From Bacteroidales bacterium (lineage in GTDB: Bacteria; Bacteroidota; Bacteroidia; Bacteroidales; P3), in assembly GCA_017449525.1 (NCBI GenBank), contig JAFTFL010000004.1, positions 1 to 64,000 of the forward strand: a DNA stretch of 64,000 nucleotides, in the 5' to 3' direction. How positions within the stretch are numbered: the first letter of the stretch is position 1; each line of letters begins with the position of its first letter. The translations under genes were made by a program, and so were the position numbers. Below are positions 15,031 through 53,314 of the stretch, piece after piece. Under the pieces are notes generated by a model that made no database searches, was not told the DNA's origin, and worked only from the letters and a program-made list of their open reading frames with translations.

Positions 15031-15184
15031 CTCCGTACGGCATAGCGCATTCAGCCCAACGACTGCGAACGATGCACGCACGCATTGCAGTGGCACACAC
15101 CTTATTGTTTCTTCATGATGCCGTACGGCAGCAGCATCTATTCAGAACGACATCCTCCCCCTTGCCGTACAGCAGCGACCCCAT
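15031..15184. repeat. GTAC-centred repeat sites, locus A
   Basis: Three copies of a near-palindrome close to TGCCGTACGGCA have GTAC at 15035, 15123 and 15177. The first two are 88 bp apart (4 x 22); the third is 54 bp further, off the grid. This is the most degenerate of the four loci. Confidence 0.5.
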
Positions 15185-15638
15185 GTCCCCTACGGATCAT
15201 AGGCATGGCAGCGAAGATGACGTGCAGGGTCGGCGCAGGAGGGCATGGGCAGCCACGAAGGATGCTGGGAGCAAAGCACCATGGAATTAGAATGCACCCC
15301 CTCTGCACCGCCGTAAACTTAACGAAGACCTTGCAGACCACAGGCCGTTCTACAATTCATGATGCGCGCCGCAACATGGCCACCTGCGATGCCGCACAAG
15401 AGGTGCGCAACCAATGCGGTTCTCCAACCTCAAGATGAAGCTCATGCCTGCCGCTGCCTGTCTGCCCAAAGGGGCGGATAGCAGGCCGCAACGGTTTCAC
15501 TACAAGAGGCTCTTTCCAGGTGTCGGCGGGCTCCGCCCAGCCCTGCCTCGCAAGCAGTTGCGCGCGCTGCGCAAGGGTGCCCTTATAAGCGGTAGTAAAT
15601 AGTGCCACACCGAGGACGGTGGGTTGGATTATTTTTCG

Positions 15639-15646
15639 TAACTTTG
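15639..15646 (+). promoter_or_regulatory. Promoter -7 box for ackA
   Basis: TAACTTTG fits TAnnTTTG and lies 66 bp before the ackA ATG. A TTG at 15624 is too close to be an ideal -33 element. Confidence 0.6.
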
Positions 15647-15711
15647 AAGCGCAAAGCGTACGCTTTGACACCTAAGCAAGAGAATATAAACCAAACATAT
15701 ATTAGTAACCT

Positions 15712-16914
15712 ATGAAGATATTAGTTCTGAATTGTGGCAGCTCCTCCATCAAATATCAGTTGGTGGACATGGACAACAACGCTGCCGTCATGGCGAAGGG
15801 ACTGCTGGAGCGCATTGGACTGGAGATGGGCGAGTTCACCCACAAGTACAAAGGCGAAAAGCACTACGAACAACGCCCTATACCCAACCACACGGAGGGC
15901 ATCAAGATTGTGCTGGCCGCACTGACGGATGCCACCATAGGCGTCATCAGCTCGATGCAGGAAGTCGGTGCCGTTGGCAACCGCATCGCCCATGGAGGAG
16001 AGCTCTTCAAGGACAGTTGCCTCATCGACGACCATGTGATTGAACAGATAAAGAGTTTGGAGCCCCTCGCTCCGCTCCACACCCCAGGCAACTTGGCTGG
16101 CATCTATGCTATGCGCGAGGTGTTGCCCGGCGTGCCCCAGGTGGCAGTGTTCGACACCGCATTCCACACCACACTTCCCCCCAAGTCGTTCCTCTACGGC
16201 CTGCCTTACGAGATGTATGAGAAGCACGGCATAAGACGCTACGGCTTCCACGGCACCAGCCACAAGTACGTCGCCGAGAAGGCTGCACGCATGCTCGGTA
16301 GGGATTGGACCACCCAGAAGATAATCAGTTGCCACCTCGGCAGTGGAGCCAGCATCTGCGCTATCGACCACGGCAAGAGTGTCGACACCACGATGGGTAT
16401 GACTGCCCTCGAGGGACTCATCATGGGCTCGCGTTGCGGCGACGTCGACCCAGGCGTCATCCTCTACCTGCAAGAACAATGCGGCATGAGCCTTAAGGAC
16501 ATCAACACGATGCTCTATAAGCAAAGCGGCCTGACCGGCATCAGCGGTGGCAAGCAAGACATGCGCGACATTCGCGCCGGCCGCGACGCAGGCGATGTGC
16601 GCGCCACCTATGCATTCGACATGTTCGCTCAGCGCGTGAAACGCTACATAGGCGGTTACATGGCCGAGCTCGGAGGCTGCGACATCCTGCTCTTCACCGG
16701 CGGTATAGGCGAGAACGCGTGGTTCATGCGCCGCCCCATTCTCGAGAACATGGAGTGCCTCGGCATCAAGATAGACTTCTCGAAAAACGACAACGTAATG
16801 GGCGAAGACATAGTGCTCAGCACGCCCGACTCACCGGTAGCCACCGTGGTGGTGACCACCGACGAGGAATATGTCATAGCAAGCGATACCAACCGGCTGG
16901 TGCAGGGTCGATAG
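15712..16914 (+). CDS. ackA: Acetate kinase
   Basis: Interconverts acetyl phosphate and acetate with ATP formation, the last step of fermentative acetate production. The 400-residue length is standard. Family motifs are MKILVLNCGSSSIKYQ at the start, RYGFHGTSHKYV (with catalytic residues), HLGSGASICAI, and FTGGIGENAW near the C-terminus. It is monocistronic with its own promoter and a strong terminator. The usual partner pta (phosphotransacetylase) is not adjacent, unlike in many Bacteroidales. Confidence 0.97.
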   Translation: MKILVLNCGSSSIKYQLVDMDNNAAVMAKGLLERIGLEMGEFTHKYKGEKHYEQRPIPNHTEGIKIVLAALTDATIGVISSMQEVGAVGNRIAHGGELFKDSCLIDDHVIEQIKSLEPLAPLHTPGNLAGIYAMREVLPGVPQVAVFDTAFHTTLPPKSFLYGLPYEMYEKHGIRRYGFHGTSHKYVAEKAARMLGRDWTTQKIISCHLGSGASICAIDHGKSVDTTMGMTALEGLIMGSRCGDVDPGVILYLQEQCGMSLKDINTMLYKQSGLTGISGGKQDMRDIRAGRDAGDVRATYAFDMFAQRVKRYIGGYMAELGGCDILLFTGGIGENAWFMRRPILENMECLGIKIDFSKNDNVMGEDIVLSTPDSPVATVVVTTDEEYVIASDTNRLVQGR

Positions 16915-16935
16915 CCCCACACTGCTACATCCAAC

Positions 16936-16978
16936 AGAGGGGTCGAAGTGCCACAGCGCACGTCGACCCCTCTACTTT
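16936..16978 (+). terminator. Terminator of ackA
   Basis: A perfect 11-bp stem, AGAGGGGTCGA (16936-16946) with TCGACCCCTCT (16963-16973), has a 16-nt loop and is followed by ACTTTAT. It lies 22 bp after the ackA stop. Confidence 0.75.
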
Positions 16979-17060
16979 ATGGGTACGCACAGCGGGTTTT
17001 CTGCCACCAGCTGTTGATATCGCAGTGTCGACCACCGCCGCCGCAAGGCGGCTTTCTTCG

Positions 17061-17070
17061 TACCTTTGCA
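17061..17070 (+). promoter_or_regulatory. Promoter -7 box for thiL
   Basis: TACCTTTGCA preceded by TTCG, 54 bp before the thiL ATG. Confidence 0.7.
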
Positions 17071-17123
17071 CACGCGCTGGTGGCCACACGGCTGCCTGCA
17101 CCCACGCCAAAAGCATCTGCACA

Positions 17124-18197: not shown

Positions 18198-18233
18198 GCA
18201 ACCATTTCCATCTCCTACACTACGCAACGCACT

Positions 18234-18908
18234 ATGCCCCAACTTGAAGACTCATTCCTCCACAAAGGACGCCGCCGCGCCATGTGCGCCCGACTGGCCG
18301 AGCGCGGCATTACCGACCCCGCAGTGCTGGCCGCCATGGAGAAGGTGCCGCGACACTGGTTTGTGGACCCCACCGTGGAAGAGCACGCCTACGACGACCA
18401 GGCACTGCCCATAGGCTGTGCACAGACCATTTCGCAGCCCTCCACCGTGGCCTTCCAAACGCAACTACTGGAGCTTAAGCGCGGCATGAAAGTACTGGAG
18501 ATTGGTACGGGTAGTGGCTATCAAACCGCAGTGCTCTGCACCCTCGGCGCGCGCGTCTTCACCATAGAACGCCAAAAGGCGCTATTCGACAGCACTAAGC
18601 AACTGCTCTACGACCTGCACTACCACGCACGCTGCTTCCTCGGCGACGGCTACAAAGGGCTCACCGAGGTGGACTACGCCCCCTTTGACCGCGTCATCAT
18701 CACCTGCGGCGCCCCCTATGTGCCCACCGCCGTCATGGAACAGCTCGTCCCTGGTGGCATCATGGTCATACCGGTCGGCAACAACAATCAGGAAATGCTG
18801 CGCATCGTCAAGCCCTGCAACGACAGCGAAGAACCTCTTGTGGAGACCTATGGCAACTGTCGCTTTGTACCCATGCTGAGCGACATCAACTTCAGGCAAG
18901 AACCCTAA
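18234..18908 (+). CDS. pcm: Protein-L-isoaspartate O-methyltransferase
   Basis: Repairs isoaspartyl residues in aged proteins by SAM-dependent methylation. The 224-residue protein carries the PCMT signatures: QTISQPSTVAFQTQLLEL (substrate region), VLEIGTGSGYQTAVL (SAM binding) and FDRVIITCGAPYVP, then LVPGGIMVIPVG. It follows thiL by 36 bp and is probably co-transcribed. A 22-23 bp periodic repeat begins about 20 bp after its stop codon, inside the likely 3-prime untranslated region. Confidence 0.95.
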   Translation: MPQLEDSFLHKGRRRAMCARLAERGITDPAVLAAMEKVPRHWFVDPTVEEHAYDDQALPIGCAQTISQPSTVAFQTQLLELKRGMKVLEIGTGSGYQTAVLCTLGARVFTIERQKALFDSTKQLLYDLHYHARCFLGDGYKGLTEVDYAPFDRVIITCGAPYVPTAVMEQLVPGGIMVIPVGNNNQEMLRIVKPCNDSEEPLVETYGNCRFVPMLSDINFRQEP

Positions 18909-19175
18909 GAAGAAGCGAGCCAGCAGACAGGAGAAAGTAAGTCTGTTTCCTTTGGAATGCAATAAGAATGCCTTGGGAAAGACAAGATTATGGACTCTGG
19001 AAAACAGGGTGACGGACTGGGGAAAGCAAGACGATAAACTTGAGAAAGAAAGGGTAATGGACTTGGGAAAGACAAAACCGTACCGTCCTGCGGGATCGCC
19101 CATACGCAAGAGGATAGCATCATCCCCCAAACATATTTGACGGATATATTCTGCTCAAATCGATAAAAAACAGTC
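18909..19175. repeat. 22-23 bp periodic array, CTTGGGAAAG core
   Basis: Seven units start at 18928, 18950, 18972, 18995, 19017, 19039 and 19062. Steps are 22, 22, 23, 22, 22 and 23 bp. The core drifts around CTTGGGAAAG (for example CTCTGGAAAA, CTGGGGAAAG, CTTGAGAAAG), and several units end in GGA. The pattern sums to two blocks of 67 bp. As 67 is not a multiple of three, neither strand can hold a repeated peptide in one frame. It lies between the convergent genes pcm and 19256-20014. Confidence 0.75.
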
Positions 19176-19220: not shown

Positions 19221-19255
19221 GGAAACATTCAACAACCCGCGGCGCAACCTACCGC

Positions 19256-20226: not shown

Positions 20227-20261
20227 AATTACAATACATATTCTTCAACTGCTGCGACGAA

Positions 20262-21219: not shown

Positions 21220-21250
21220 TAGCCGAAGGTACCACTGCTTGCGAGCTATA

Positions 21251-21627
21251 TACTACGCCCCTCTATCGCTACCATCTTCTTCCCCGTAGCACCAGACTTC
21301 CATTGTGGTTTGGATAATACTACGCCCCTCAATCGCTACCATCCCCTTCTTCGTAGCCCCAGACTTCCATTGTGGTTTGGATAATACTACGCCCCTCAAT
21401 CGCTACCATCTTCTTCCCCGTAGCACCAGACTTCCATTGTGGTTTGGATAATACTACGCCCCTCAATCGCTACCATCTTCTTCCCCGTAGCACCAGACTT
21501 CCATTGAGGTTTGGATAATACTACGCCCCTCAATCGCTACTATCTTCTTCCTCGTAGCCCCAGACTTCCATTGAGGTTTGGATAATATTACGCCCCTCTA
21601 TTACCACTATCTTCTTCCTCGTAGCAT
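21251..21627. repeat. 67-bp tandem repeat, five copies plus part
   Basis: Copies begin at 21251, 21318, 21385, 21452, 21519 and 21586 (the last partial), each exactly 67 bp apart. The unit starts TACTACGCCCCTCAATCGCT and ends near GGTTTGGATAA. Copies differ by a few bases (CTTCTTCCCC versus CCCCTTCTTC; TTGTGG versus TTGAGG). The unit length is not a multiple of three, and it lies in a gap between two minus-strand genes, so it is non-coding. Copy number could vary between strains. Confidence 0.92.
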
Positions 21628-25521: not shown

Positions 25522-25531
25522 TACCTTTGCA
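25522..25531 (+). promoter_or_regulatory. Orphan promoter-like box
   Basis: TACCTTTGCA preceded by a run of nine T and CG. It points away from the flanking minus-strand gene toward the GTAC array about 190 bp further. A hairpin with arms AAAAGCCC (25536-25543) and GGGCTTTT (25579-25586) lies just downstream and might terminate a very short transcript. Confidence 0.5.
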
Positions 25532-25665
25532 TCGCAAAAGCCCCCTCTGCGCACCCCAATTCCCCTGCAGGCTGCCGTGGGCTTTTCCTCCCCATGTTTT
25601 GTTGTGTTGTTCCTCGGCGTCGATGCCTCAGCCGTTGGGCGTAGGCCGCGCTGCTGCACGGCATG

Positions 25666-25796
25666 GGTAGTACTGCCGCCGTATTGCAGTGGGGAACACG
25701 TTGTTGTGTCGTTCCGCTGCCGTACGGCATCCGCCCTTTCCTCCGTACGGCATTGCGCCCCCACCCGTACAGCACAGCGGTCTGCCCCGTACGCTA
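25666..25796. repeat. GTAC-centred array, locus B
   Basis: Four regular sites have GTAC at 25722, 25745, 25767 and 25789 (steps 23, 22, 22), each within CCGTACGGCAT or a close variant. A looser site lies at 25670. The spacer sequences are C-rich and differ. Confidence 0.7.
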
Positions 25797-39336: not shown

Positions 39337-39583
39337 TCGATTGGTTCCCCACATGGGTTTTGCCTTGTATTCCTTCCTTTGTAGAACGCTCCATGCACTC
39401 TTTTATTGTGCAGCAGCCGAAAGAGCTTTTGCGCGGCCGCTGCAGCCCGTCCGAAGGGGTGCGCTACTGGGCACTCTTCGGGGCAGGAGCCCCTCCCCTA
39501 TCGCCCCTCATGACTTCCGCCACACGGCGCGTGCCACCACGCCCCACAACCTCACGGCCATTGCCCTTGGGAAGAGGGCTCTA

Positions 39584-39727
39584 TGCCGTACGACACTGGC
39601 ACCTATGCTGTACGGCATGCGCCCCGATGCCGTACAGCATGGGAACGAAACAACAAGTTGTAATCCAGAAGTGTAGGTGTACCGAAATGTGGGGGCTGTA
39701 CGACAAGGGGGCTGATGCCGTACAGCA
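39584..39727. repeat. GTAC-centred array, locus C
   Basis: GTAC occurs at 39588, 39610, 39632, 39698 and 39720, all on one 22-bp grid (39588 to 39698 is exactly 5 x 22). An off-grid copy lies at 39679 and one position (39654) is lost. Sites read ATGCCGTACGACA, ATGCTGTACGGCA, ATGCCGTACAGCA and similar. Confidence 0.75.
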
Positions 39728-39741
39728 TCAGCCCCCTTGTC
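39702..39741. repeat. 17-bp perfect hairpin with GTAC in the loop
   Basis: Left arm 39702-39718 starts GACAAGGGGG and right arm 39725-39741 ends CCTTGTC. They pair perfectly over 17 bp around the loop CGTACA. It could act as a terminator or RNA processing signal for a minus-strand transcript from the box at 39792-39801, but there is no clear U-tract. Confidence 0.7.
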
Positions 39742-39791
39742 CTGTAGTTGCGTGGTCCACAGAGCGCCGCTGCAATAATATCGCAGGAGGA

Positions 39792-39801
39792 TGCAAAGGT
39801 A
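39792..39801 (-). promoter_or_regulatory. Orphan promoter-like box
   Basis: On the minus strand this reads TACCTTTGCA, preceded by AAAAAATCG. The next gene in that direction starts at 39336, more than 450 bp away across array C, so it may drive that operon with a long leader or a non-coding RNA. Confidence 0.5.
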
Positions 39802-41250: not shown

Positions 41251-41254
41251 TGGT

Positions 41255-42277: not shown

Positions 42278-42303
42278 GGGACTAATCAGAATTTAGTACT
42301 ACA

Positions 42304-42325
42304 ATTTGTTCCACGCGGAACAAAT
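42304..42325. terminator. Small hairpin between 42277 and 42393
   Basis: ATTTGTTCC (42304-42312) and GGAACAAAT (42317-42325) form a 9-bp stem with an ACGC loop between two minus-strand genes. It could terminate the ybaK-like gene; the U-tract is poor. Confidence 0.4.
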
Positions 42326-42392
42326 AATTACCTTATTAAGTATCAGTAGTTTTATGTGAGTTGTATTACTATCAACTTTTTGTCGTATTTTA

Positions 42393-42914
42393 CTAACAGG
42401 TTATTTCCTCGTTTTCCGTTGTTTCGTACAGGTCCATCACACTATAGGGCACTTGCAATTCTTCGACAAACTTCATCATGTCTTTGCTGCTAATGACAAG
42501 GGATGCCCGATTGTCATTGGGGTGAAAACTGACCTTTTCTGCCTGTAGAAGATTGCGGTCGATGAACAGGGTAACGGCATGGGTCGCATCGTTGACCAGT
42601 GCAAACAGTGAGACACTGCCTGGCCTAACGCCGAGATGACGCATCAGACGCTCTGGGCTGGCGAAGCTGAGTTTGCCCTGATGAAGACGATGTTCCATAT
42701 CGTGGATGTCCATCGCATGACGTGCATCCATGATAACCAAGTAGTGTTTATCGCCTTTATGATTACGAAAAAAGAGATTTTTGCATAGGGTTGTCCCCTC
42801 GCCACGGTAGTATTGCGAGGCTATTTCTATAGTGGGTGCCTCGGGATGCTCATAGTAATCGAACGGAATGCCGAGGCGAGAGAGGCATTCGTAGACTCGC
42901 GGTTGTCCTATCAT
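42393..42914 (-). CDS. YbaK/ProX-type aminoacyl-tRNA deacylase
   Basis: The 173-residue protein has the INS/YbaK fold: YYEHPEAPTIEIASQYYRGE, CKNLFFRNHKGDKHYLVIMD with the conserved Lys in the K-N-L-F-F motif, and GVRPGSVSLFALVNDATHAV. Such proteins hydrolyse mischarged tRNAs such as Ala-tRNA(Pro) in trans of prolyl-tRNA synthetase. It follows nadA by 29 bp and is probably co-transcribed. Which mischarged species it edits cannot be told. Confidence 0.9.
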   Translation of the reverse strand: MIGQPRVYECLSRLGIPFDYYEHPEAPTIEIASQYYRGEGTTLCKNLFFRNHKGDKHYLVIMDARHAMDIHDMEHRLHQGKLSFASPERLMRHLGVRPGSVSLFALVNDATHAVTLFIDRNLLQAEKVSFHPNDNRASLVISSKDMMKFVEELQVPYSVMDLYETTENEEITC

Positions 42915-42943
42915 CGCGCAACGATATGTAGGAAAATAGTCCT

Positions 42944-43891
42944 CTATTTAATGATACCAAGAGTTTTCGACATGTCAAGCATCCGTACGATGGGACGCTT
43001 GGCAGCCTCAATAAGTTGCTCATCCATCACTATCTCGGGACTCTCATCCCGTAGGCATTCATAGAGTTTCTCGAGCGTGTTGAGCTTCATGTATGCACAA
43101 TCGTCGCATGCACAGCTCTTGTCATCGCGTAGGGTGATGAACTCTTTATCGGGGTTTTCGCGCTTCATCTCGAACAGAATACCCGTTTCGGTGGCCACGA
43201 TGAAGCGGTGGCTGTCGGACTTTTTGATGAAGGAGAGCATGGCTTTGGTAGAACCAATAAAGTCGGCCACCTCAAGCAGTGCAGCGTTGCACTCGGGGTG
43301 CGCAATGACGGGCGCATCGGGGTTGGCAGCTTTCAGTTGCAGGATAGCTTCGGCTTGCATGGCGTCATGAACCGTGCATACTCCATTCCATAGAAGCATG
43401 TTTCGTCCTGTAACACGGTTGATGTAGCCGCCCAAGTTCTTGTCGGGCGCAAAGATAATCTTTTGGTCGTCGGGCAGTGCGCGCACTAATTTCTCAGCAT
43501 TGCCAGATGTACAGATAAGGTCACTGAGGGCTTTTATCTCGGCTGAGCAGTTGACATAACTTATGACCATGTGGTCGGGGTGCTGAGCCTTAAAGGCGGC
43601 AAAGTCAGAAGCCTTGCAGCTTTCGGCCAGGGAGCAGGAGGCTTCCATGTCGGGCAGGAGCACCTTTCTACTTGGATTTAGGATTTTGGCCGTTTCAGCC
43701 ATGAAATGTACACCGCAGAACACTATGATGTCCGCAGTAGCCTCCTGCGCCTTTTGCGCAAGGGCGAGGCTGTCGCCTACGTAGTCTGAAAGTTCTTGTA
43801 TCTCGTGTCTTTGATAGTAATGGCCAAGGATAACGGCATTCTTCCTCTTCTTGAGTTCGAGAATTGCTTCTCGGATATTGTTGTTACTCAT
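42944..43891 (-). CDS. nadA: Quinolinate synthase
   Basis: Condenses iminoaspartate and dihydroxyacetone phosphate to quinolinate in NAD synthesis, using a 4Fe-4S cluster. The 315-residue protein has AVILGHYYQRHEIQELSDYV, VFCGVHFMAETAKIL, LLPDMEASCSLAESC, YVNCSAEIKA, ICTSGNA, and CACDDCAYMKLNTLE with cluster cysteines. The ATG at 43891 is chosen; 13 more codons are open upstream. nadB and nadC are not adjacent. Confidence 0.97.
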   Translation of the reverse strand: MSNNNIREAILELKKRKNAVILGHYYQRHEIQELSDYVGDSLALAQKAQEATADIIVFCGVHFMAETAKILNPSRKVLLPDMEASCSLAESCKASDFAAFKAQHPDHMVISYVNCSAEIKALSDLICTSGNAEKLVRALPDDQKIIFAPDKNLGGYINRVTGRNMLLWNGVCTVHDAMQAEAILQLKAANPDAPVIAHPECNAALLEVADFIGSTKAMLSFIKKSDSHRFIVATETGILFEMKRENPDKEFITLRDDKSCACDDCAYMKLNTLEKLYECLRDESPEIVMDEQLIEAAKRPIVRMLDMSKTLGIIK

Positions 43892-43925
43892 AACGTTGTA
43901 ATACTTGTTTGAGTCAGTCAAAGTA

Positions 43926-43935
43926 TGCAAATTTA
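43926..43935 (-). promoter_or_regulatory. Promoter -7 box for nadA
   Basis: On the minus strand this reads TAAATTTGCA (TAnnTTTG), 35 bp before the nadA ATG. Confidence 0.6.
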
Positions 43936-44363
43936 CTAATAAATTTCAACCTGTTCCGTACGGCTTCTTGTCCTACGATCTTATGCAACGGGAGCAATGG
44001 TGTAGTGTGAGTGATGTATGGGTACTACGGCTCGCTATATATATAAATATGTATCTCTTTATATAAAGAGTATTCTATTATGTTTTATGGATGTCAATAT
44101 AGTGGATAAAGTTGCAAGAGGCTGTAAGCTATAGAGTAGGGTCGGGATAAGTGAAGTGTAAAAAATCTGATTAAGTCCTCTTTTGTTCACGTGTTGATAA
44201 GCTTGAAAAGAAGTTCACACGTTGTTGAAAGGTTATTCTTGGAGAGTAAACAAGGTGATGTGGAAATCTTGTAAGCATCAATAAGGCAGTGAGGTGCGGA
44301 AGGGTGTGGAGAAAAAGGGAAAAACATCATGTGAGTAGAGATGAAAGAATTATGTTTTTGGAG

Positions 44364-44373
44364 TAACTTTGCA
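44364..44373 (+). promoter_or_regulatory. Promoter -7 box for rpiB operon
   Basis: TAACTTTGCA, 32 bp before the rpiB ATG. Confidence 0.65.
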
Positions 44374-44404
44374 ATCTATTTGTTTTTATCAACACCAGTT
44401 GTAG

Positions 44405-44851
44405 ATGAAAGAAATTATAGCTATAGCGTGTGACCACGCTGGCTTTGGGCTAAAAAAGGAAGTGGTGTACCACTTGAAAGAACATGGATTTGAAGTGCAG
44501 GATTATGGCACTGATGGTGAACAAAGCGTGGACTACCCCGACTATGCGCATCCTCTTGGGAAAGCTATCGAAGGTGGTGAGTACAAGAGAGGCATTGTTA
44601 TATGTGGAAGTGGCAACGGAGTGCAGATGACAGTGAATAAGTATCCGCATGTGCGGTGCGCGTTGTGTTGGAATGAAGAGCTGGCAGAGTTGGCTCGGAG
44701 ACACAACGACGCGAATGTGCTGTCGCTACCCGCAAGGTTTATAGACAAGGAGTTGGCCTTGATGATAGTGGATAGATTTCTGTCTACGCCGTTCGATGGT
44801 GGAAGACACCAACGCAGGGTGGAGAAAATCAGTGAACTGTTGGCACGTTAG
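44405..44851 (+). CDS. rpiB: Ribose-5-phosphate isomerase B
   Basis: Interconverts ribose 5-phosphate and ribulose 5-phosphate. The 148-residue protein matches RpiB/LacAB: IAIACDHAGFGLKKEVVYHL, VDYPDYAHPLGKAI, RGIVICGSGNGVQMTVNKYP (with the Cys base) and RHNDANVLSLPARFI. It leads an apparent operon with the LutB-like gene (20 bp later) and deoC. RpiB and DeoC together would channel pentoses from nucleoside breakdown. Confidence 0.96.
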   Translation: MKEIIAIACDHAGFGLKKEVVYHLKEHGFEVQDYGTDGEQSVDYPDYAHPLGKAIEGGEYKRGIVICGSGNGVQMTVNKYPHVRCALCWNEELAELARRHNDANVLSLPARFIDKELALMIVDRFLSTPFDGGRHQRRVEKISELLAR

Positions 44852-44871
44852 TGAACAACATGTTGTAGAAG

Positions 44872-46041
44872 ATGGGAAAAGCAGCGGATGGATATGAGTT
44901 GTTTTTGAGCAGGGCACGTCAGCATGCGGAGAAGAGTAGTAGCCGTTCGGTAGAACAGTTGTGTGGCTCTCAATGTGCTGAAGAGTGCAACAAGGAGTTG
45001 GGAAGTTACTTGGCTGGTGTGCATGCATCGGTTCTAACTCGTTTGGATGAGGTGCTGAAGCAGTTCGAGAAATCCTTTACCTCACCTCGCACGGTCATTA
45101 AGTGGTGTAGCGACTATCAAGATGTGTTTCTGCAACTTCGCACTTTGGTGAGTGAGGTTGGTTACCGTTCGGTGTGCTTTCCACAGTATGATTTGGTAGA
45201 AAACTCTCCTTTCGACCGTGGACTCTTCTGCGAACTTGGGTTGCGCTATTTCATTAATGATGAAGGACTTTCAATCAGCGATGCAGGTGATATGCAGCTC
45301 TTTCTGGCCGACGCAGTGTTTGCCGACCAGGGCACGATGCTGCTGAGGAGTATGAGTCCGCACGCCTTGGAGCTCTACAACAACACTCATATAAAGATAG
45401 TTTTTGCCACCATCAGTAGTGTGTATGAGGTCGAGCAGGACGCGGAGGTGTTTGAAGCTGTGAAGTGTGCTTGTGAGCAGACAACAGAAGGCATGACTCT
45501 GCTGAGCAAGTCGGCAATGGCGGGTGTTACGTACCTATTTCTTGTGGACAACGGTCGCAGCAAAATGTTGCCGCTAAGCGAAGGGCGCAACGTACTGTCT
45601 TGTATTGAATGCCGAAGGTGTGAGGAGGTTTGCCCCGTGGCTCAATTGGCGGGAGCCGATGCATATAATAATGTATTCACAGGTCCCGTAGGTTCGGTGG
45701 TGTTGCCTTATATGGAAAACGTTGTAGAATACGGATATGCGCCGTTCGCGTGCACCATGTGTGGTGTCTGCGAGGAGGTGTGTCCGATGCAGTTGCGCTT
45801 GCGGGATATGATAGTGGAGTCGAGGTCAACCCTCGCTTCAAATAGACAGTTAGATGTCCAAACGCAGGAATATATGCGCACTATTCAAAGACTGTTCTTG
45901 GACAGGAAGCATCAGAATAGACATCTACGCTGGAAACGGCTACTCAGTTTTTTCAACACCAAGCATCACAACGGCCTTGCCAAGTATTATCATCTGCCGA
46001 GTTCTACCTTCAACACACAGGCATGTAAAAAGGTGCAATAG
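44872..46041 (+). CDS. LutB-like iron-sulfur protein
   Basis: The 389-residue protein resembles the LUD-domain/ferredoxin protein LutB (YkgF). The N-terminal two thirds hold a divergent LUD-like region. Two 4Fe-4S motifs follow: SCIECRRCEEVCPV and CTMCGVCEEVCPM (about residues 245-310). LutB normally works with LutA and LutC in lactate oxidation, but neither is present; the gene lies between rpiB and deoC. The LUD motifs are weak, so the electron-transfer role is inferred mainly from the cluster motifs. Confidence 0.82.
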   Translation: MGKAADGYELFLSRARQHAEKSSSRSVEQLCGSQCAEECNKELGSYLAGVHASVLTRLDEVLKQFEKSFTSPRTVIKWCSDYQDVFLQLRTLVSEVGYRSVCFPQYDLVENSPFDRGLFCELGLRYFINDEGLSISDAGDMQLFLADAVFADQGTMLLRSMSPHALELYNNTHIKIVFATISSVYEVEQDAEVFEAVKCACEQTTEGMTLLSKSAMAGVTYLFLVDNGRSKMLPLSEGRNVLSCIECRRCEEVCPVAQLAGADAYNNVFTGPVGSVVLPYMENVVEYGYAPFACTMCGVCEEVCPMQLRLRDMIVESRSTLASNRQLDVQTQEYMRTIQRLFLDRKHQNRHLRWKRLLSFFNTKHHNGLAKYYHLPSSTFNTQACKKVQ

Positions 46042-46065
46042 ACAAATGTTTAGAAACAACTGTGT

Positions 46066-46845
46066 ATGGACAATCTCCTGAACGATAATATAATTGAAGA
46101 ACTACGAACTATATATACATGTCTTGACCATACTTCGCTTTCAGACACCGACACTGAGCGGTCGGTAGTGCAGTTTTGCGAGGAGACGCTTCGTATGGCG
46201 GAGTCGACTCCCAACGCTGGCCATGTGGCATCGGTATGTGTTTATCCGTTGTTTGCAGGTGCTGCCAGTAGAGTGCTCAAGGGAAGTGGCATCAAGGTGG
46301 CAGCCGTAGCAGGTGCTTTCCCTACAGGTCAGTCTCCTTTAGAGATCAGAATAAGTGAAATACACAACGCTTTAGACCATGGAGCCGATGAAATAGATAC
46401 CGTTATTCGCCGTGGACTCGTGCTCGAAGGCAACATTCAGCAGGCTGAGGATGAACTGTATGCCATCCGCGAAGCTTGTGGAACAAGCACGCTCAAGGTG
46501 ATTATCGAAACGTGCCAACTACCGACCGAGCAGTTGGTGCGTACAGCCACCGAGTTGGCCATCCACTGTGGGGCCGATTTTGTCAAGACATCTACGGGCA
46601 AATCTACTGCGGGTGCGACGCTCGACGCGTCGCAAATTATGATAGAAACCCTTGAGAAGTACTATCAAGAGACTGGAAAAATTGTGGGTTTTAAGGCGGC
46701 TGGAGGCATATCTACCCCTGACCAGGCATATTCTTACTTTAGGATGTGCAAGCATTTACTCAGCAAAAAAACTTTTCCTTCTCAGGTATTTAGAATTGGA
46801 ACCAGTAGGCTTACACCTCTCCTTCTCCAATATTTAACGGCGTAG
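46066..46845 (+). CDS. deoC: Deoxyribose-phosphate aldolase
   Basis: Cleaves deoxyribose 5-phosphate to glyceraldehyde 3-phosphate and acetaldehyde. The 259-residue class I aldolase has LDHTSLSDTDT, ASVCVYPLF, AVAGAFPTGQ, LKVIIETCQL, and the Schiff-base Lys174 in GADFVKTSTGKS, then GFKAAGGIST. It begins 24 bp after the LutB-like gene. Confidence 0.96.
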   Translation: MDNLLNDNIIEELRTIYTCLDHTSLSDTDTERSVVQFCEETLRMAESTPNAGHVASVCVYPLFAGAASRVLKGSGIKVAAVAGAFPTGQSPLEIRISEIHNALDHGADEIDTVIRRGLVLEGNIQQAEDELYAIREACGTSTLKVIIETCQLPTEQLVRTATELAIHCGADFVKTSTGKSTAGATLDASQIMIETLEKYYQETGKIVGFKAAGGISTPDQAYSYFRMCKHLLSKKTFPSQVFRIGTSRLTPLLLQYLTA

Positions 46846-46871
46846 CTGCCTGTTAATTGACTATTTATTCG

Positions 46872-46881
46872 TACCTTTGCA
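46872..46881 (+). promoter_or_regulatory. Promoter -7 box for spt
   Basis: TACCTTTGCA preceded by ATTCG, 32 bp before the spt ATG. Confidence 0.7.
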
Positions 46882-46903
46882 CGTTAATATATCGTAATTT
46901 TAG

Positions 46904-48091
46904 ATGAAACCGCTTCAACAGAAACTCGCCCGCTACACCGAACCTCAAAAGGTGAAACGCCAGGGCGTGTATCCTTATTTCCGTGTCATTTCGAGTGATC
47001 AGGATGCAGTAGTTACTATGGATGGCAAACGAGTACTGATGCTCGGCTCAAATAGTTATCTGGGTCTTACCAACCATCCTAAGATAAAAGAGGCTGCGAT
47101 TGAAGCTACGCGCAAGTATGGCACAGGATGTGCAGGCTCCCCTTTCTTGAACGGCACACTCGACATCCATATAGAGCTTGAACAACTCATGGCAGAGTTC
47201 CTCCACAAGGACGGTGTGATGCTTTTCTCGGCAGGTTTCCAGGCCAATTCGGGCACCATCCCCGCCATTACCGGTCGAGGAGACTACGTGATATACGACG
47301 AGATGGACCACGCTTCCATTATCGAGGGACGCCGACTCACCTTTGCTGAAACGCTGAAATACAAGCACGGAAGTATGGAAGACTTGGAGCGTGTGCTCCA
47401 ACGCTGTCCTCTTGATGCGGCTAAACTTGTGGTTACTGACGGCGTGTTCAGTATGGAAGGTGATGTGGCTAAACTGCCGCAAATACACGAATTGTGCGAC
47501 AAGTATAATGCCACTCTCATGGTGGACGAGGCTCACAGTCTCGGTGTCTTTGGACGTGAAGGACGTGGAGTGTGCGACCACTTTGGCTTGCTTGAAAGCA
47601 CCGAAGTCGTAATGGGTACATTCTCTAAGTCATTGGCTGCCATAGGTGGTTTCGTGGCATCGGATGCTGAGACTATCAACTGGATGAAGCACAACGTACG
47701 GCCATATATATTCACAGCCAGTATCGCCCCAGCAGCAGCAGCTTCAGTGATAGCAGCTATGAAAATCATGAGGTCAGAGCCTGAACGTCAAGAGAATCTG
47801 TGGCGTGTTACCAACTATGCACTTAAGTGTTTCCGTGAGGCAGGATTCGAAATAGGCCACACCGAAACACCCATCATACCGCTCTATGTGCGCGACGACC
47901 CAAAGACATTCCAGGTTACACGCATGTTGCTTGACGAAGGTGTCTTTGTTAATCCGGTCGTATCCCCTGCAGTACCACCTAAAGACACTCTGATACGTCT
48001 GTCCTGGATGGCCACACATACCATAGAACAAGTTGACTATGCTGTGGATAAGGTAGTCAAGTGCTTCAAGAAACTTGACCTGCTGAAGTAG
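46904..48091 (+). CDS. spt: Serine palmitoyltransferase (alpha-oxoamine synthase family)
   Basis: The 395-residue PLP enzyme has the alpha-oxoamine synthase layout: LGSNSYLGLTNHPKIKEAA, CAGSPFLNGTLDIHIELE, DEMDHASII (His136 stacks on PLP), MVDEAHSLGVFG (Asp208, His211) and GTFSKSLAAIGGF (Schiff-base Lys242). It closely resembles Bacteroides serine palmitoyltransferase from memory, including YPYFR near the N-terminus and IPLYVRDDPKTFQVT. It makes 3-ketosphinganine from serine and acyl-CoA or acyl-ACP. Biotin-pathway KAPA synthase is the alternative, but no bio gene is near. A GNAT-like gene follows 37 bp later. Confidence 0.9.
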   Translation: MKPLQQKLARYTEPQKVKRQGVYPYFRVISSDQDAVVTMDGKRVLMLGSNSYLGLTNHPKIKEAAIEATRKYGTGCAGSPFLNGTLDIHIELEQLMAEFLHKDGVMLFSAGFQANSGTIPAITGRGDYVIYDEMDHASIIEGRRLTFAETLKYKHGSMEDLERVLQRCPLDAAKLVVTDGVFSMEGDVAKLPQIHELCDKYNATLMVDEAHSLGVFGREGRGVCDHFGLLESTEVVMGTFSKSLAAIGGFVASDAETINWMKHNVRPYIFTASIAPAAAASVIAAMKIMRSEPERQENLWRVTNYALKCFREAGFEIGHTETPIIPLYVRDDPKTFQVTRMLLDEGVFVNPVVSPAVPPKDTLIRLSWMATHTIEQVDYAVDKVVKCFKKLDLLK

Positions 48092-48128
48092 CCCCTTATC
48101 CCCTCTCCTACTCACTCAATTCCGTTGC

Positions 48129-49253
48129 ATGGAAGCCATAGATATCGTACAAGTTACCACACGAAGACAACTACGTGCATTTATTAAATTCCCCAACGTT
48201 TTATTCAAAGATGTAGAGACTTACATCCCCCCTCTCAATCGTGATGAGCTGGCCATCTTGACCCCCAAGAATCCTTCATGGGAGCATAGCCGCTGCAAGA
48301 TGTGGCTTGCCTACCGCGGAGGCAAGGTTGTGGGTCGCGTTGCCGCTATCATCAACGACAGCGTCAATACGCATTGGAACAAGCGGTCGGTGCGCTTTGG
48401 CTGGTTTGATTTTGTGGAGGATATCAATGTGTGTACGGCACTGCTTGACCAAGTGAAGCAGTTTGGCCGCGATAATGGAATGACGGACATCGAAGGTCCT
48501 ATGGGTTTTACCGACATGGACAAGGAGTGCTGGGTTATAGACAACTTTGATGCGCGCCAAAACTCAACGACACTCTACAATCCAAAGTACTACATCGACT
48601 TTATAGAGCAACTGGGCTATAGCATTGTGTGCCGCTGGCAGCAGTACAAGATGCCTGCAAGTCAACCCATACCCGACAAGGTTGCACGCATCAATGAACT
48701 GATACTTAATAAGTATAACCTTAGGCTACTGAAGTTCAAGAAGCGCAAAGAAGTCTACCCTTACGCACGGAAGTTCTTCTATACTCTTAATAGTTCGTTC
48801 GGTGAACTGTTCGATTTCGTCCCACTTACGGAACGGGAAATCGATGTTTACGTAAAGGAATATTTCCCCTTTGTCAACCTCGAATTTGCCAATTTCGTAG
48901 TCGATAAGGACGACAATCTGGTGGGTTTTGGACTTAGCATCCCCGATCTGGCACCCGCCTACAAGAAGGCCAACGGGCGTCTTTTCCCGTTCGGTTGGTA
49001 CTACATCCTAAGGGCATTGCGTAAGTTTGACACCATCGACCTGCTTCTTAACGGTGTGCATCCGGACTGGCAGAAAAGAGGGGTGCACTCCATCTACTAC
49101 GCCGAAATGAATCGCAATGCAATAAAGCACCACGTAAAGACTGCTTATACTAATCCACAAATCATTGGCAATGAGGCTGAGAAGATTTGGGGTACACAGT
49201 ATGATACCGACCCACTCATGACCCGTGCGGTGTTCGCCAGGTCGATAGATTGA
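48129..49253 (+). CDS. GNAT-like protein, candidate bacterial ceramide synthase
   Basis: The 374-residue protein has a GNAT-like N-terminal half (about 55-160: MWLAYRGGKVVGRVAAIIND and FVEDINVCTALLDQVKQFGR, then GPMGFTDMDKECWVIDNFD) and a second acetyltransferase-like half (FVVDKDDNLVGFGLSIPDL). It is coupled to spt. Bacterial ceramide synthase described in Caulobacter is an acyltransferase unrelated to the eukaryotic enzyme and, to my knowledge, GNAT-related. The gene pairing makes N-acylation of the sphingoid base a reasonable inference, not proof. Confidence 0.75.
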   Translation: MEAIDIVQVTTRRQLRAFIKFPNVLFKDVETYIPPLNRDELAILTPKNPSWEHSRCKMWLAYRGGKVVGRVAAIINDSVNTHWNKRSVRFGWFDFVEDINVCTALLDQVKQFGRDNGMTDIEGPMGFTDMDKECWVIDNFDARQNSTTLYNPKYYIDFIEQLGYSIVCRWQQYKMPASQPIPDKVARINELILNKYNLRLLKFKKRKEVYPYARKFFYTLNSSFGELFDFVPLTEREIDVYVKEYFPFVNLEFANFVVDKDDNLVGFGLSIPDLAPAYKKANGRLFPFGWYYILRALRKFDTIDLLLNGVHPDWQKRGVHSIYYAEMNRNAIKHHVKTAYTNPQIIGNEAEKIWGTQYDTDPLMTRAVFARSID

Positions 49254-49286
49254 GTGCTGCTGCGAGTGTTTTTTCGCACTCCCCTA

Positions 49287-49321
49287 CCCCACCGAGCGTA
49301 CAGCTGGTGGGGTTTTCTTTT
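49287..49321 (+). terminator. Terminator of spt operon
   Basis: CCCCACC (49287-49293) and GGTGGGG (49306-49312) form a 7-bp GC stem followed by TTTTCTTTT. It lies 34 bp after the GNAT-like gene. Confidence 0.85.
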
Positions 49322-49378
49322 GCTGAACGAGGAATTATGCAGCCAGGAGGAAAGAACCATGATGCAGTCCATTATATA

Positions 49379-49412
49379 TTTGGTTGTTCGGCTAAAAATG
49401 AGTAACTTTGCA
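49379..49412 (+). promoter_or_regulatory. Full -33/-7 promoter for rsbW-like gene
   Basis: TTTG (49379-49382), a 20-bp spacer and TAACTTTG (49403-49410) match the Bacteroidota consensus TTTG-N19-21-TAnnTTTG in both boxes and spacing. It lies 28 bp before the ATG. This is the best complete promoter in the window. Confidence 0.8.
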
Positions 49413-49437
49413 GAACTGAACAGAATGATGCTGAACT

Positions 49438-49890
49438 ATGGAACGTATTACCATTCAGTCGGATATTGCTGAGATAAGTAAAGTCGAGTCTTTTGTCAGC
49501 AACATTTGCGATAATCACAATCTGGACCGATACTTCGCTTCTATCACCATGGCAGTGGTAAGTGCTGTGGACAATGCCATACGGCATGGTAATCATTCTG
49601 TCAAGGAGAAGAAAGTTGTTATCGAAAGTGCTGTGGTGCGAGGTGGTATCTCGTTCTCTGTAGAGGACGAGGGCGAGGGCTTCGACTATCAGCATCATGG
49701 ACATATTGACGACGACGCAACAGGTAATGGCATGATAATGATGCGTATGCTTGCCGATGAAGTAGAGTATTCCGAAGGAGGTAGAAGGGTTAACATGCTC
49801 TTTGCCGTCAGCGGAATCGACGAGGCCCTTGCGAACCAGCGTTGCCGCGTGCTCAAGCAGTTTTCTCCTGCTCAAGTGCTCAATGTGTAG
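49438..49890 (+). CDS. Anti-sigma-like histidine-kinase-fold ATPase (RsbW type)
   Basis: The 150-residue GHKL ATPase-fold protein has the N-box VVSAVDNAIRHGNH, the G1 box VEDEGEGFDY and the G2 region DDATGNGMIMMRMLADE. Such RsbW/SpoIIAB-like serine kinases bind sigma factors or anti-anti-sigma partners. No partner gene adjoins. The order anti-sigma-like, ybeY, mnmG is familiar in Bacteroidales. It carries its own consensus promoter. Confidence 0.88.
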   Translation: MERITIQSDIAEISKVESFVSNICDNHNLDRYFASITMAVVSAVDNAIRHGNHSVKEKKVVIESAVVRGGISFSVEDEGEGFDYQHHGHIDDDATGNGMIMMRMLADEVEYSEGGRRVNMLFAVSGIDEALANQRCRVLKQFSPAQVLNV

Positions 49891-49978
49891 CAGTCTTCTT
49901 GTTTTTTCTTATGTGCGTTGCGTAGTAAGCACCCTTGTGCAGTGGTGTGGCGGTTCTATCCCCCTGTTTTCCGTATTG

Positions 49979-50058
49979 GAAAGAGGGGAGGGGGTCTCGT
50001 GTCTCATGGGGAAGTGTAACTGTGTCTCATGGGGAGGAGCCCTCATGTCTCCTGGGGA
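49979..50058. repeat. 23-bp periodic array, TCTCATGGGGA core
   Basis: Cores TCTCATGGGGA at 50002 and 50025 and TCTCCTGGGGA at 50048 are each 23 bp apart. A degenerate GAAAGAGGGGA at 49979 continues the same step. It lies in the gap between the anti-sigma-like gene and the next small gene. Confidence 0.65.
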
Positions 50059-50103
50059 GAGGCGCACATGTTGTAATGTTGATTTTTTTAACTTGGTAAT
50101 GAA

Positions 50104-50298
50104 ATGCAGCAAATATTGAAGTACATCTTTTCTGGTCTCGGGCTGGCCATGGGCATGGCCGTCTTGGTCATCATGATTGTTTCCGAACAGCCCGACATCA
50201 AAACCATGGTGCTCCTATTGGCATTGGGCATGGCCTCACAGGGCATTTGCCTTATCGACCAGATTAGCGAGAAGCAGGAGAAGGACAAAGAAGGCTAA
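50104..50298 (+). CDS. Small two-helix membrane protein
   Basis: The 64-residue product has two hydrophobic segments (IFSGLGLAMGMAVLVIMIV and MVLLLALGMASQGICLI) and a charged tail ending in SEKQEKDKEG. It probably forms a hairpin in the inner membrane with a cytoplasmic C-terminus. Coding likelihood is good because the overlapping minus-strand frame is less protein-like. Function is unknown. Confidence 0.72.
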   Translation: MQQILKYIFSGLGLAMGMAVLVIMIVSEQPDIKTMVLLLALGMASQGICLIDQISEKQEKDKEG

Positions 50299-50479
50299 GT
50301 TTATCGCTTCGAGAATTGCTCGACGGCGACCTGGTGGTCGCTGAGCGAAAACGAAGATGCTCATTTCGACGAATATTTATATTTTAGTACTTATAAATAA
50401 ATGTAGTTCACTATGTTATTCTGCTTAGAGCGGCATGCAATATTGAACTGCTGAAAAATGATTACACCCCAGTACAGCT

Positions 50480-50914
50480 ATGACTATAAGTTTCCAAGTG
50501 GAAGATGTACGTTTCTCTCTTCCGGAACGCCAACGTTTCAAGAAGTGGATACGTGAAACTGTTGAGGAACACGGCAAGAAGGTAGGGGAGATAGGCTATC
50601 TCTTCTGCAGCGACGAGTACATCCTCGAAGCGAACCGCACTTACCTCGACCACGACACCTATACCGACATCATTACTTTCGACTATGTGGAGGGCAACAT
50701 TGTCTCGGGCGATATCCTTATCAGCATTGACCGCGTGCGCGACAATGCCGAGCAGTTTGGTGTGCCTTTTGAGCAAGAGTTGCGTCGCGTAGTCATCCAC
50801 GGAGTGCATCATCTGCTTGGCCAGGGCGACAAGAGCCCGGCCGAGGCGGCCGAAATGCGTCAGCGCGAAGATGCTTCGCTCTTGTGGTGGGAACGTCAGG
50901 ATAGCGAATGTTAG
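50480..50914 (+). CDS. ybeY: Endoribonuclease YbeY
   Basis: Single-strand RNase for 16S rRNA 3-prime maturation and ribosome quality control. The 144-residue protein has EIGYLFCSDEYILEANRTYL, DHDTYTDIITFDY, and the zinc motif VVIHGVHHLLGQGDKS. The third ligand of the canonical HGxxHLxGYDH pattern differs (GQGDKS), a variation I associate with Bacteroidota members. It precedes mnmG by 129 bp. Confidence 0.94.
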   Translation: MTISFQVEDVRFSLPERQRFKKWIRETVEEHGKKVGEIGYLFCSDEYILEANRTYLDHDTYTDIITFDYVEGNIVSGDILISIDRVRDNAEQFGVPFEQELRRVVIHGVHHLLGQGDKSPAEAAEMRQREDASLLWWERQDSEC

Positions 50915-51043
50915 AAATAAGTCTATTTTTATTACTGTTTCACAAGAAACAGGTGCGGAAAGAACTCTTGGATAGTTTGTTCAATTGTCTGTAACAGGTC
51001 ATATTGAGGACTCGGTACCTTTTCATTCAAGTGTTGTAAGCCT

Positions 51044-52927
51044 ATGTCTATACAGTGGGAGAAGTATGATGTTGTAGTAGTTGGCGGAGGCCATGCTGGG
51101 GCAGAAGCTGCTGTGGCTTCGGCTCGGATAGGATGTAGCACACTGCTGATTACCCAAAAGATTGAGGCAGTGTGTCGTATGTCGTGCAACCCAGCTATGG
51201 GTGGCGTTGCGAAAGGGCAAATTGTTCGAGAGATTGATGCTTTGGGCGGTTGCTCAGGCATCATCACAGACTTATCTACCATACAGTTTCGCATGCTCAA
51301 CAGGTCCAAAGGTCCTGCTATGTGGAGCCCCAGGGCGCAATGCGACAAGGATCAGTTTTCGCTGCACTGGCGTCAACTTCTTGAGCAAACGCCGCATCTC
51401 TCTCTCTGGCAGGACGAGGTGGTAGACCTCATTGTTCGGCAAGGCAGGGTAGAAGGAGTGCGTACACGCATTGGTTTAGAGATACCTGCACGTGCAGTGG
51501 TGTTGACCAACGGCACTTTTCTCGAGGGACGTATGCACATCGGCGAGTGGTCGCACGAGGCAGGGCGCATTGGCGAAGAGCCATCGGTAGGGCTCTCGGC
51601 TCGTTTGCGCGAACTGGGCTTCGAAGTAGGACGTTTGAAGACGGGCACCCCGATGCGTGTCAACGGACGCACGGTCGACTTCTCCCGTCTCGAGGAGCAG
51701 CCGGGCGACGAGTGCCCAGGCAAGTTCTCCTTCTCCAACACTGTCTCTGTGCAGCAGCAACGCTCTTGTTATCTGGCATATACAAATCTTCATACCCATG
51801 ATGTGCTTCGCACAGGCTTCGACCGTTCGCCTATGTTTGCAGGTCGCATACAGGGTCGTGGGCCGCGCTATTGTCCATCCATCGAGGACAAGCTCGACCG
51901 GTTTGCCGACAAAGAACGCCATCAACTTTTTGTTGAGCCAGAAGGACGGTCTACGCTGTCCTACTATTTGAACGGATTCTCGTCGTCGTTGCCCCTCGAG
52001 GTACAACTTGAGGCGCTCCGCACCATCGACGGTTTTGCTAATGCCCGTATCTTGAAGCCTGGCTACGCTATAGAATATGACTATTTTCCGCCCACCCAAT
52101 TGTCCTATACTCTTGAGAGCAAGATAGTTGATGGTCTGTTTATGGCTGGTCAAATCAACGGTACCACGGGCTACGAAGAGGCGGCCTGCCAGGGATTGAT
52201 GGCGGGAATCAATGCGGCGCTCAAGGTGCAGGAGCGCGCTCCCTTTGTGCTTAACCGCACACAGGCTTATATTGGAGTGCTGATAGACGACTTGGTAACC
52301 AAAGGTGTAGATGAGCCTTACCGCATGTTCACGTCGCGTGCCGAGTATCGTATCTTGCTCAGACAGGACAATGCCGATGAGCGTCTTACGCCGCTGAGTT
52401 ACGCGTTGGGGTTGGCATCGGACGAACGGATGCGCCGTGTGGAGCAGAAGGTGGAGGCTCGTCGGGGTCTGACGGAGGCGCTGCAGCAGCTCTCTGTGGC
52501 ACCGTCCGAGGTCAATGAGGCGTTGGAATCCTACGGGTCGCAGCCGCTACAACAGCATGTGCGGCTCGAAAACCTGCTCTTGCGTCCCGAACTTGACATG
52601 CAGAAGTTGCAGCAGCTGAGTGCTGACTTGCAGACGGCGGTGCTGGCTGTGCCAGAAGCGATGCGTGAGGAGGTGGTCGAATCTACCGAGATTGCGCTGA
52701 AGTATCAGCGCTATATAGAGAAGGAACGTGTGGTGGCGGAGCGTATACTGAAGTACGAGGATGTGCCGCTGCCGCCAGACTACGACTACTTCTCTCTGTC
52801 GGCGCTCTCTTACGAGGCGCGTGAGAAACTCACCAAGATGCGTCCGCAAACGCTGGGTCAGGCGTCGCGCATCAGCGGGGTGTCGCCTGCTGATGTATCG
52901 GTGCTGATGATATACCTGTGCCGGTAG
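51044..52927 (+). CDS. mnmG: tRNA uridine 5-carboxymethylaminomethyl modification enzyme
   Basis: With MnmE it modifies U34 of tRNAs reading split-box codons, using FAD. The 627-residue length and motifs fit GidA/Mnm[21 protein letters not shown] (FAD binding), [69 protein letters not shown], and the C-terminal helical domain ending [18 protein letters not shown]. mnmE is not in the window. Confidence 0.97.
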
Positions 52928-53314
52928 GGTGCTACGGTGTGCATGGGGAAGTAGAGGTTCTCTCTGCTAAAAGTTATAGTGCAATAGTCCGCCTGTCGTG
53001 ATGCAGGTTTGCAGGTGTCGTACGGCAAGGAGAAAAGATGCCGTACGACAAGGGGGTCTATGCCGTACTGCTGAGGGGCTGATGTCGTACGGTATGGAGG
53101 CATGTGCTGTACGACACTTGAAGGGGGTGTCGTACGGCAGTTTTATTGGTTGTAGTAGGGGTGATGACAGGGCTGATCTACGGGAGGAGGCAGGCGGTGC
53201 TTGAGGGCAACGTTTCCTGTGGAACAATCGGCGTAAAGCTCATGGAACAAGACGATTGAACTTCTTGGGCGCGTTTTATGCATCTTTTGCACTAAAACGC
53301 ATGGAACATGGTTC
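52928..53314. other. Non-coding interval between convergent genes
   Basis: About 390 bp between mnmG (plus) and the WbqC gene (minus). It holds the most regular GTAC array (53016-53139). The rest shows no gene, clear terminator or promoter box. Confidence 0.65.
53016..53139. repeat. GTAC-centred array, locus D
   Basis: Six sites have GTAC at 53020, 53043, 53065, 53087, 53109 and 53132, with steps of 23, 22, 22, 22 and 23 bp. Sites read GTCGTACGGCA, GCCGTACGACA, GCCGTACTGC, GTCGTACGGTA, GCTGTACGACA and GTCGTACGGCA. Spacers share G-runs (complement C-runs) but otherwise differ. Confidence 0.85.

Follow-up and report, generated by a model that had tools for sequence, protein, structure and literature searches.

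The window analyzed here is the whole 64,000-nucleotide stretch at positions 1 to 64,000 of contig JAFTFL010000004.1 (GenBank assembly GCA_017449525.1), from an uncultured Bacteroidales genome, probably of rumen origin, that we call G000. Several of its intergenic gaps contain short arrays in which a small unit recurs at a fixed step, and these arrays are the subject of this work. An initial annotation had placed six of them, at about 15.1, 19.0, 25.7, 39.6, 50.0 and 53.1 kb, and every one is found at its reported place. The features at and beside them are as follows.

14856–14864, plus strand: promoter-like −7 box (TACCTTTGC), directed into the 15.1-kb array
14994–15179, minus strand: weak copy of the G000 composite element (nhmmer profile, 37.5 bits), with GTAC units at 15035, 15123 and 15167
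18975–19075, no strand: locus-private array, core CTTGGGAAAG, period 22–23 (period 45 in Tandem Repeats Finder, TRF), not dispersed
25522–25530, plus strand: promoter-like box (TACCTTTGC), directed into the 25.7-kb array
25593–25761, minus strand: copy of the G000 element (nhmmer profile, 57.7 bits)
25697–25706, no strand: variant anchor unit (CACGTTGTTG)
25718–25792, no strand: four GTAC units, steps 23, 22 and 22
39577–39761, plus strand: top-scoring copy of the G000 element (nhmmer profile, 98 bits)
39584–39639, no strand: three GTAC units, steps 22 and 22
39651–39660, no strand: anchor unit CAACAAGTTG, its dyad at 22 bp from that of the last GTAC unit
39698–39727, no strand: two GTAC units on the opposite side of the anchor
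39793–39801, minus strand: promoter-like box (TACCTTTGC on the minus strand), directed into the 39.6-kb array
49998–50071, no strand: locus-private array of three units at period 23 (TRF), core TCTCATGGGGA
53016–53139, no strand: six GTAC units, steps 23, 22, 22, 22 and 23, with neither an anchor nor a promoter-like box found beside them

Results

The unit steps of 22 or 23 bp that had been proposed are those seen in three of the four arrays assigned a GTAC core. GTAC starts at 25722, 25745, 25767 and 25789 in the 25.7-kb array (steps 23, 22, 22), at 39588, 39610 and 39632 (22, 22) and again at 39698 and 39720 (22) in the 39.6-kb array, and at 53020, 53043, 53065, 53087, 53109 and 53132 in the 53.0-kb array (23, 22, 22, 22, 23). 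At 15.1 kb the starts are 15035, 15123 and 15167; this array is the weakest of the six, since its steps of 88 and 44 bp are only multiples of 22. Allowing up to two mismatches, TGCCGTACGGCA has 20 matches in the window, where 3.4 are expected and 100 shuffles give a maximum of 8. The cores of the other two arrays do differ from GTAC, as stated; TRF gives a period of 23 at 50.0 kb (unit starts 50000, 50023 and 50046) and of 45, two units, at 19.0 kb. Both cores proved private to their own loci, TGTCTCATGGGGA having 7 matches versus 14 for the reversed pattern and ACTTGGGAAAGA 60 versus 74, in contrast to the dispersed ATGCCGTACGGCAT, with 184 versus 8. Between open reading frames (ORFs) at window positions 21250–21626 there is also a 67-bp tandem repeat of 5.6 copies, a period equal to three steps of 22.3 bp, and periods of 66, 67 and 88 recur in G000 in TRF.

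The predicted excess of 22–23-bp autocorrelation over shuffled sequence is present beyond the window. In a 450-kb sample of G000, with 6-mer pairs counted against 20 dinucleotide shuffles, lag 22 gives 199 pairs (18.4 ± 5.2 in shuffles) and lag 23 gives 54 (15.1). Because a single near-perfect tandem array supplies 72 of the 199 lag-22 pairs, the safer count is one limited to six pairs per gap, which keeps any one array from dominating. Over 323 gaps this count is 180 versus 29 at lag 22 and 88 versus 26 at lag 23; lags 24, 25 and 28 lie at background, and lags 21 (68 versus 26) and 9 (55 versus 27) are likewise elevated. The claim that one period is common to differing sequences also holds: with YGTACR cores masked, lags 22, 23, 21 and 44 retain 119, 63, 64 and 81 pairs (lags 25–43 have a mean of 29 and a standard deviation of 10), and the unit contains GTAC in 8 of the 21 TRF arrays of period 22 or 23 and lacks it in 13. 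These come from 45 TRF arrays in G000 (lax settings, score at least 60, three duplicate loci dropped), of which 15 have period 22, 6 have period 23 and 11 have periods of 44, 45, 66, 67 or 88. The pattern GTACN18-19GTACN18-19GTAC occurs at 97 places, some on duplicated contigs, versus 10 when the pattern is reversed. Beyond the first stretch, the choice of G000 sequence was partly guided by arrays that this kind of search had shown, so G000 densities lean high; the period distribution of the non-GTAC arrays is independent of that choice.

Multiples of one step in unrelated units are also what would be seen if replication or repair duplicated one- or two-turn units regardless of their sequence, leaving the arrays mostly as a by-product. 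We regard this as quite unlikely, and it draws support from the TRF steps of 22, 44, 45, 66, 67 and 88 and from locus-private units at 22–23 bp, some of them near-perfect (L129, period 22, 5.6 copies, 93% match; L138:2371–2889). The latter gap holds a long CAGCACCTCTACTCTCCTCAAA-like 22-bp minisatellite; another single gap, L021:8754–9059, holds two adjacent 22-bp rows with TGATGAAAG and TTACATC-like cores. Fixed-step duplication leaves unexplained both the retention of a palindromic core over dissimilar spacers and the dispersal of that core, as well as the composite arrangement described next.

Most GTAC arrays in G000 belong to a single dispersed composite element, which the initial annotation did not foresee. 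The 108 units in 30 GTAC chains, a few of them repeated through duplicated contigs and overlapping chains, have the palindromic consensus ATGCCGTACGGCAT; they are spaced by 22 (56 cases), 23 (15) or 44–46 bp (7), and the spacer columns hold little information (0.04–0.3 bits). Of 60 flanks, 15 hold a CAACAAGTTG-like anchor unit with a score of 8 or more out of 10, versus 4.4 in shuffles, and in 11 of those 15 it stands exactly 22 bp from a GTAC dyad. Beyond it, one and two further steps on, are an ATAG motif and more GTAC units. The element, about 190 bp long, thus consists of an inward promoter-like box, GTAC units, the CAACAAGTTG unit 22 bp away and further GTAC units. A profile built from 21 copies finds 88 matches (E ≤ 0.01) in about 850 kb of G000, 32 of them long and 31 of these distinct. 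The anchor at exactly 22 bp and the box are features that step-wise duplication does not account for.

Dispersed copies with one layout raise the possibility that the arrays are mobile or formerly mobile elements, similar to miniature inverted-repeat transposable elements or a new kind of dispersed repeat, with the phased units as internal sites of the moving enzyme. Several transposon ends hold internal enzyme-binding sites. We consider such an origin unlikely but far from negligible. Terminal inverted repeats were not found in G000: the promoter-like box, the only sequence examined for this, has no inverted copy within 450 bp past the opposite end of any of the 28 elements that carry it. In relatives, which are too distant as species for a clear comparison, orthologous gaps vary in their units and not by the presence of an entire insert, and they showed no clean empty site or target-site duplication. 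Mobility also leaves unexplained why locus-private arrays have the same step.

The box belongs to the class TAnnTTTG, which we take to be the Bacteroidetes −7 box. With no gene mask, TAnnTTTGC lies upstream within 260 bp and directed inward for 28 of 32 elements, where simple arithmetic predicts about 0.5, and in 16 of the 28 a second box has the same direction. The count depends on definition: ORF masking lowers it to 6 or 15 inward boxes, since many of these gaps are covered by calls of the crude ORF finder. The distance from box to anchor is 178–183 bp in 14 of 27 cases; the other 13 tend to whole-step offsets, a trend that is only suggestive, as 1084 of 20,000 random draws are as small. 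Inspection for an invertible promoter, by eye only, did not reveal a GTAC row behind the box. Near 27 lag-detected G000 arrays, many of them non-GTAC, 4 boxes point inward and 5 outward, and near 57 arrays of relatives 40 point away versus 2 inward (18 versus 2 in genome G259, 14 versus 0 in G260). The inward promoter is therefore a trait of G000 and not of the array class.

A promoter directed into most of the elements would suit arrays that are transcribed as hairpins, terminators or templates. Relatives carry long inverted rows of 11-mers, and a single turn of A-form RNA likewise spans 11 bp. We nevertheless judge an RNA role very unlikely: the boxes of relatives point away, and the two halves of the palindrome show no covariation across the 108 G000 units (nine symmetric column pairs, z −1.6 to 0.5). 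Rfam has no matches to known RNA families in the window, and the six array loci yield two tRNAs only. The independence of the half-sites favors protein-bound DNA and disfavors hairpins, so that the suggestion that RNA might be tiled is unsupported for the G000 units. A hairpin-maintained repeat is rejected on this basis for G000 only, because in G260 the arms show weak agreement (15 distinct elements; 56 of 5000 permutations).

Arrays on the same ladder of steps occur in relatives, as had been anticipated. The array finder required at least six pairs at lags 11, 22 or 23, with low complexity removed. For G000 it reports 18 arrays (75.4 kb of intergenic DNA); 45 in 140.4 kb in apparent close relatives, represented by 80 acetate kinase (ackA) loci picked by acetate kinase identity of 77–86% (31 of 80 loci); and 9 in 36.0 kb in the same family (6 of 20 loci, partly from genomes with high pattern counts). 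Other Bacteroidales families have 1 in 32.9 kb (20 loci), and 19 loci from elsewhere in the phylum have 0 in 35.5 kb. Per 100 kb of intergenic DNA, this is 24–32 arrays in G000, relatives and family, 3 in the other families and 0 in the rest of the phylum. Six control period triples give 0–2 arrays in G000 and 1–15 in relatives, the 15 being for 8/16/17. An origin in chance or assembly artefact is extremely improbable, as shuffles of each of the five sets give 0 arrays and independent genomes share the steps. What speaks for it is that a few arrays lie on duplicated contigs: across its 15,922 bases, C9 matches window positions 42284–58205 at 99.994% identity. L029 and L129 also have 18,757 identical bases in common, and L028 carries the element that is also seen in L126, with equal score and equal gene distances; this redundancy slightly inflates the genome-wide counts.

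The lag counts show the same spread. The ackA loci of relatives give 389 versus 69 pairs at lag 11, 311 versus 55 at lag 22 and 232 versus 63 at lag 33, and the family set gives 124 versus 25 at lag 21 and 82 versus 25 at lag 22. In the other Bacteroidales families lag 22 is 22 versus 22 and lag 11 is 37 versus 22; in the phylum set they are 25 versus 19 and 26 versus 18. The 11-bp step of many relatives was unforeseen by the initial annotation. The 22–23-bp trait may extend beyond the family, with which the 20-locus order sample is compatible. In one relative, the single gap L112:16439–16739 contains two different 22/23-bp arrays.

The cores vary by species and the step recurs. Genome G133, a member of the family, has GTACATCTTATTTTATTTTGAT-like units (126 triples), with the palindromic core GATGTACATC at the same step. 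In G173, also of the family, the palindromic core at this step is AATTCATGSCATGAATT, with recurring spacers; its 136 CATG triples overcount the units, since each has two CATG. The G173 spacers repeat in the same order and opposite orientation (e.g., C8:185064–185182 and C8:222987–223105), so the array there is a dispersed element with position-specific spacers. G259 has rows of AGGCGTTGRTC at 11 bp (168 and 151 pattern matches; controls 0); on its contigs C1–C16, adjacent arrays are often in the same orientation among the matches listed. In G260, rows of CATATAGTATN at 11 bp meet as inverted arms of near-identical elements (93 and 97 matches; controls 0). These G259 and G260 rows, the G173 spacers that recur at several loci and the species-specific letters all add to the case for mobility, as does the lack of conserved placement at the one gap compared. 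In one orthologous array (L047 versus L060) the outer borders are conserved and all units have changed together, which would fit fixed-step duplication.

We compared the arrays with known systems. The nearest published one is BrickBuilt of Porphyromonas gingivalis (PMC4596501), which is intergenic, has 23-nt units in imperfect copies at 19 sites, and consists of spacerless units with a leader, a tail and IS5-like terminal inverted repeats, in P. gingivalis and P. gulae. It shares with the arrays its order, its intergenic location and its unit length, and is a precedent for mobile 23-nt repeats. The arrays here differ from that description in having a conserved core with free spacers at steps of 22 and 23 and many unrelated cores, and no terminal inverted repeat was found (0 of 28 elements, judged by the promoter-like end box); on these grounds BrickBuilt was rejected. 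The BrickBuilt paper also refers to previously reported direct repeats of 22 and 23 nt in P. gingivalis W83, so the trait may predate the present family.

Repetitive extragenic palindromic (REP) elements are not known to have a locked step. REPs and bacterial interspersed mosaic elements with REP-associated tyrosine transposases (RAYTs) resemble the arrays (PMC2817692, PMC3733652) in being high-copy, species-specific intergenic palindromes. They differ in that REPs are 20–40-bp palindromes, and a RAYT-type Y1 transposase (PF01797) was not found in G000 or in four other array-bearing genomes (G133, G173, G165 and G259), which also weighs against mobility; it is present in G260, G261, G100 and G120. 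Across 23 genomes PF01797 does not correlate with arrays, and a REP/RAYT mobilizer was rejected.

CRISPR arrays consist of a repeat and a variable spacer at a regular step. The arrays share that regularity and differ in their degenerate 14-bp core, non-identical repeats and spacers of only 8–9 bp; the window has no match to an Rfam CRISPR repeat, and CRISPR was rejected (cas genes were not searched for). Phased operator arrays of cooperative regulators and nucleoid proteins have palindromic sites on one helix face, as the arrays here would; the difference is that here the core changes with each species. GTAC arrays were not found in viral contigs with the strict pattern GCCGTACGGCN12-13GCCGTACGGC, and the open-licence literature yielded no description of such arrays, a weak negative.

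Discussion

The initial annotation read the shared period as a constraint on spacing. A common step with differing sequences is indeed observed in the genome and its relatives; between a tiling protein and a common way of making arrays, the results do not decide. The refuting checks that it named came out mixed: the genome-wide excess and the arrays in relatives are there, and placement at the orthologous gap compared is not conserved. The reading that we favor, tentatively and with slightly less than even confidence, is that the arrays are phased DNA platforms for a cooperative DNA-binding protein. It starts from observations made here, namely a step that does not depend on sequence, the taxonomic range in which that step occurs, the G000 element and the independent half-sites. 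The period of each array would be a single turn (11 bp) or two (21–23 bp) of DNA as it is in vivo, placing successive units on the same face of the helix, and the protein would occupy every unit, with cooperative binding from one to the next. The chief unit in G000, the palindrome ATGCCGTACGGCAT, would be bound by a dimer, and the CAACAAGTTG unit would be a special member of the row. Over evolution the phase would be kept and the letters would not, with recognition and cores drifting between species and arrays gaining and losing whole units. The protein, its cooperativity and any effects on gene expression or chromosome folding are what we infer from the arrangement.

Published values for E. 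coli in vivo are helical repeats of 11.08 and 11.60 bp (PMC1762422) and 11 bp per turn (PMC8501960). At 11.0–11.6 bp per turn, steps of 11, 22 and 23 would put units on one face; the helical repeat compared is that of E. coli, which may not be that of these bacteria. In-phase sites with independent halves, as a phased protein-binding array would have, are found in G000, and independent half-sites with free spacers fit a protein dimer on DNA.

Several results weigh against phased platforms. A step of 22–23 bp exceeds two turns of relaxed DNA (21 bp) by 1–2 bp. A candidate protein did not emerge from counts of PF01797 or PF00216; the latter (HU/IHF), over 20 genomes, numbers 2–20 in the family and 1–17 outside it, with no pattern. 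An array of sites need not be a near-perfect tandem repeat, yet some arrays are (period 22, 93% match). The G260 arms match slightly more within than between elements (40.9 versus 39.7), as a hairpin or copying would explain. In the ackA relatives the counts at lags 9, 10, 12, 18 and 24 also reach two to three times the shuffled level, and lag 21 is up 2.4-fold in both outgroups, probably from uncalled coding DNA, which makes lag 21 alone weak evidence; ordinary short tandem repeats or coding DNA that was not called make up part of the lag signal. Arrays are not kept in place upstream of acetate kinase, the sole orthologous gap examined of those the annotation wished to see compared: they occupy 3 of 41 such gaps versus 41 of 266 others, 17 of the 80 loci not being evaluable because the gene caller missed the gene. 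Finally, gene context is mixed and conflicts between array definitions. The gaps that hold the long profile elements of G000 are divergent in 17 cases, tandem in 10 and convergent in 4 (one element a duplicate), against a background of 34, 75 and 35 among gaps of at least 300 bp; lag-detected arrays of the first G000 sample lie in 3, 6 and 6, and relatives show no orientation bias (14 of 102 divergent, 23 of 224 tandem and 11 of 71 convergent gaps).

Conclusions

Mobility and fixed-step duplication each account for part of the data, and a mixture is possible, in which tandem growth makes units, selection holds their phase and dispersal spreads a favored unit. A broader proposal, speculative and unlikely, is a chromosome-wide code of phase and not of sequence, with arrays at one or two helical turns between genes, in which species-varying cores would seat a protein that polymerizes along one face of the DNA, organizing the nucleoid or gating promoters. 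Bacterial repeat families are usually known by their sequence; here, what recurs across species is a spacing near the in vivo helical turn. If phased platforms are confirmed, the arrays would provide a natural read-out of helical phase for bacteria that are not in culture and a route to a new regulatory or nucleoid protein, and they would form a class of repeats invisible to sequence-based annotation. If the phase code were true, it would amount to a regulatory or architectural system in which only the step is conserved as a signal.

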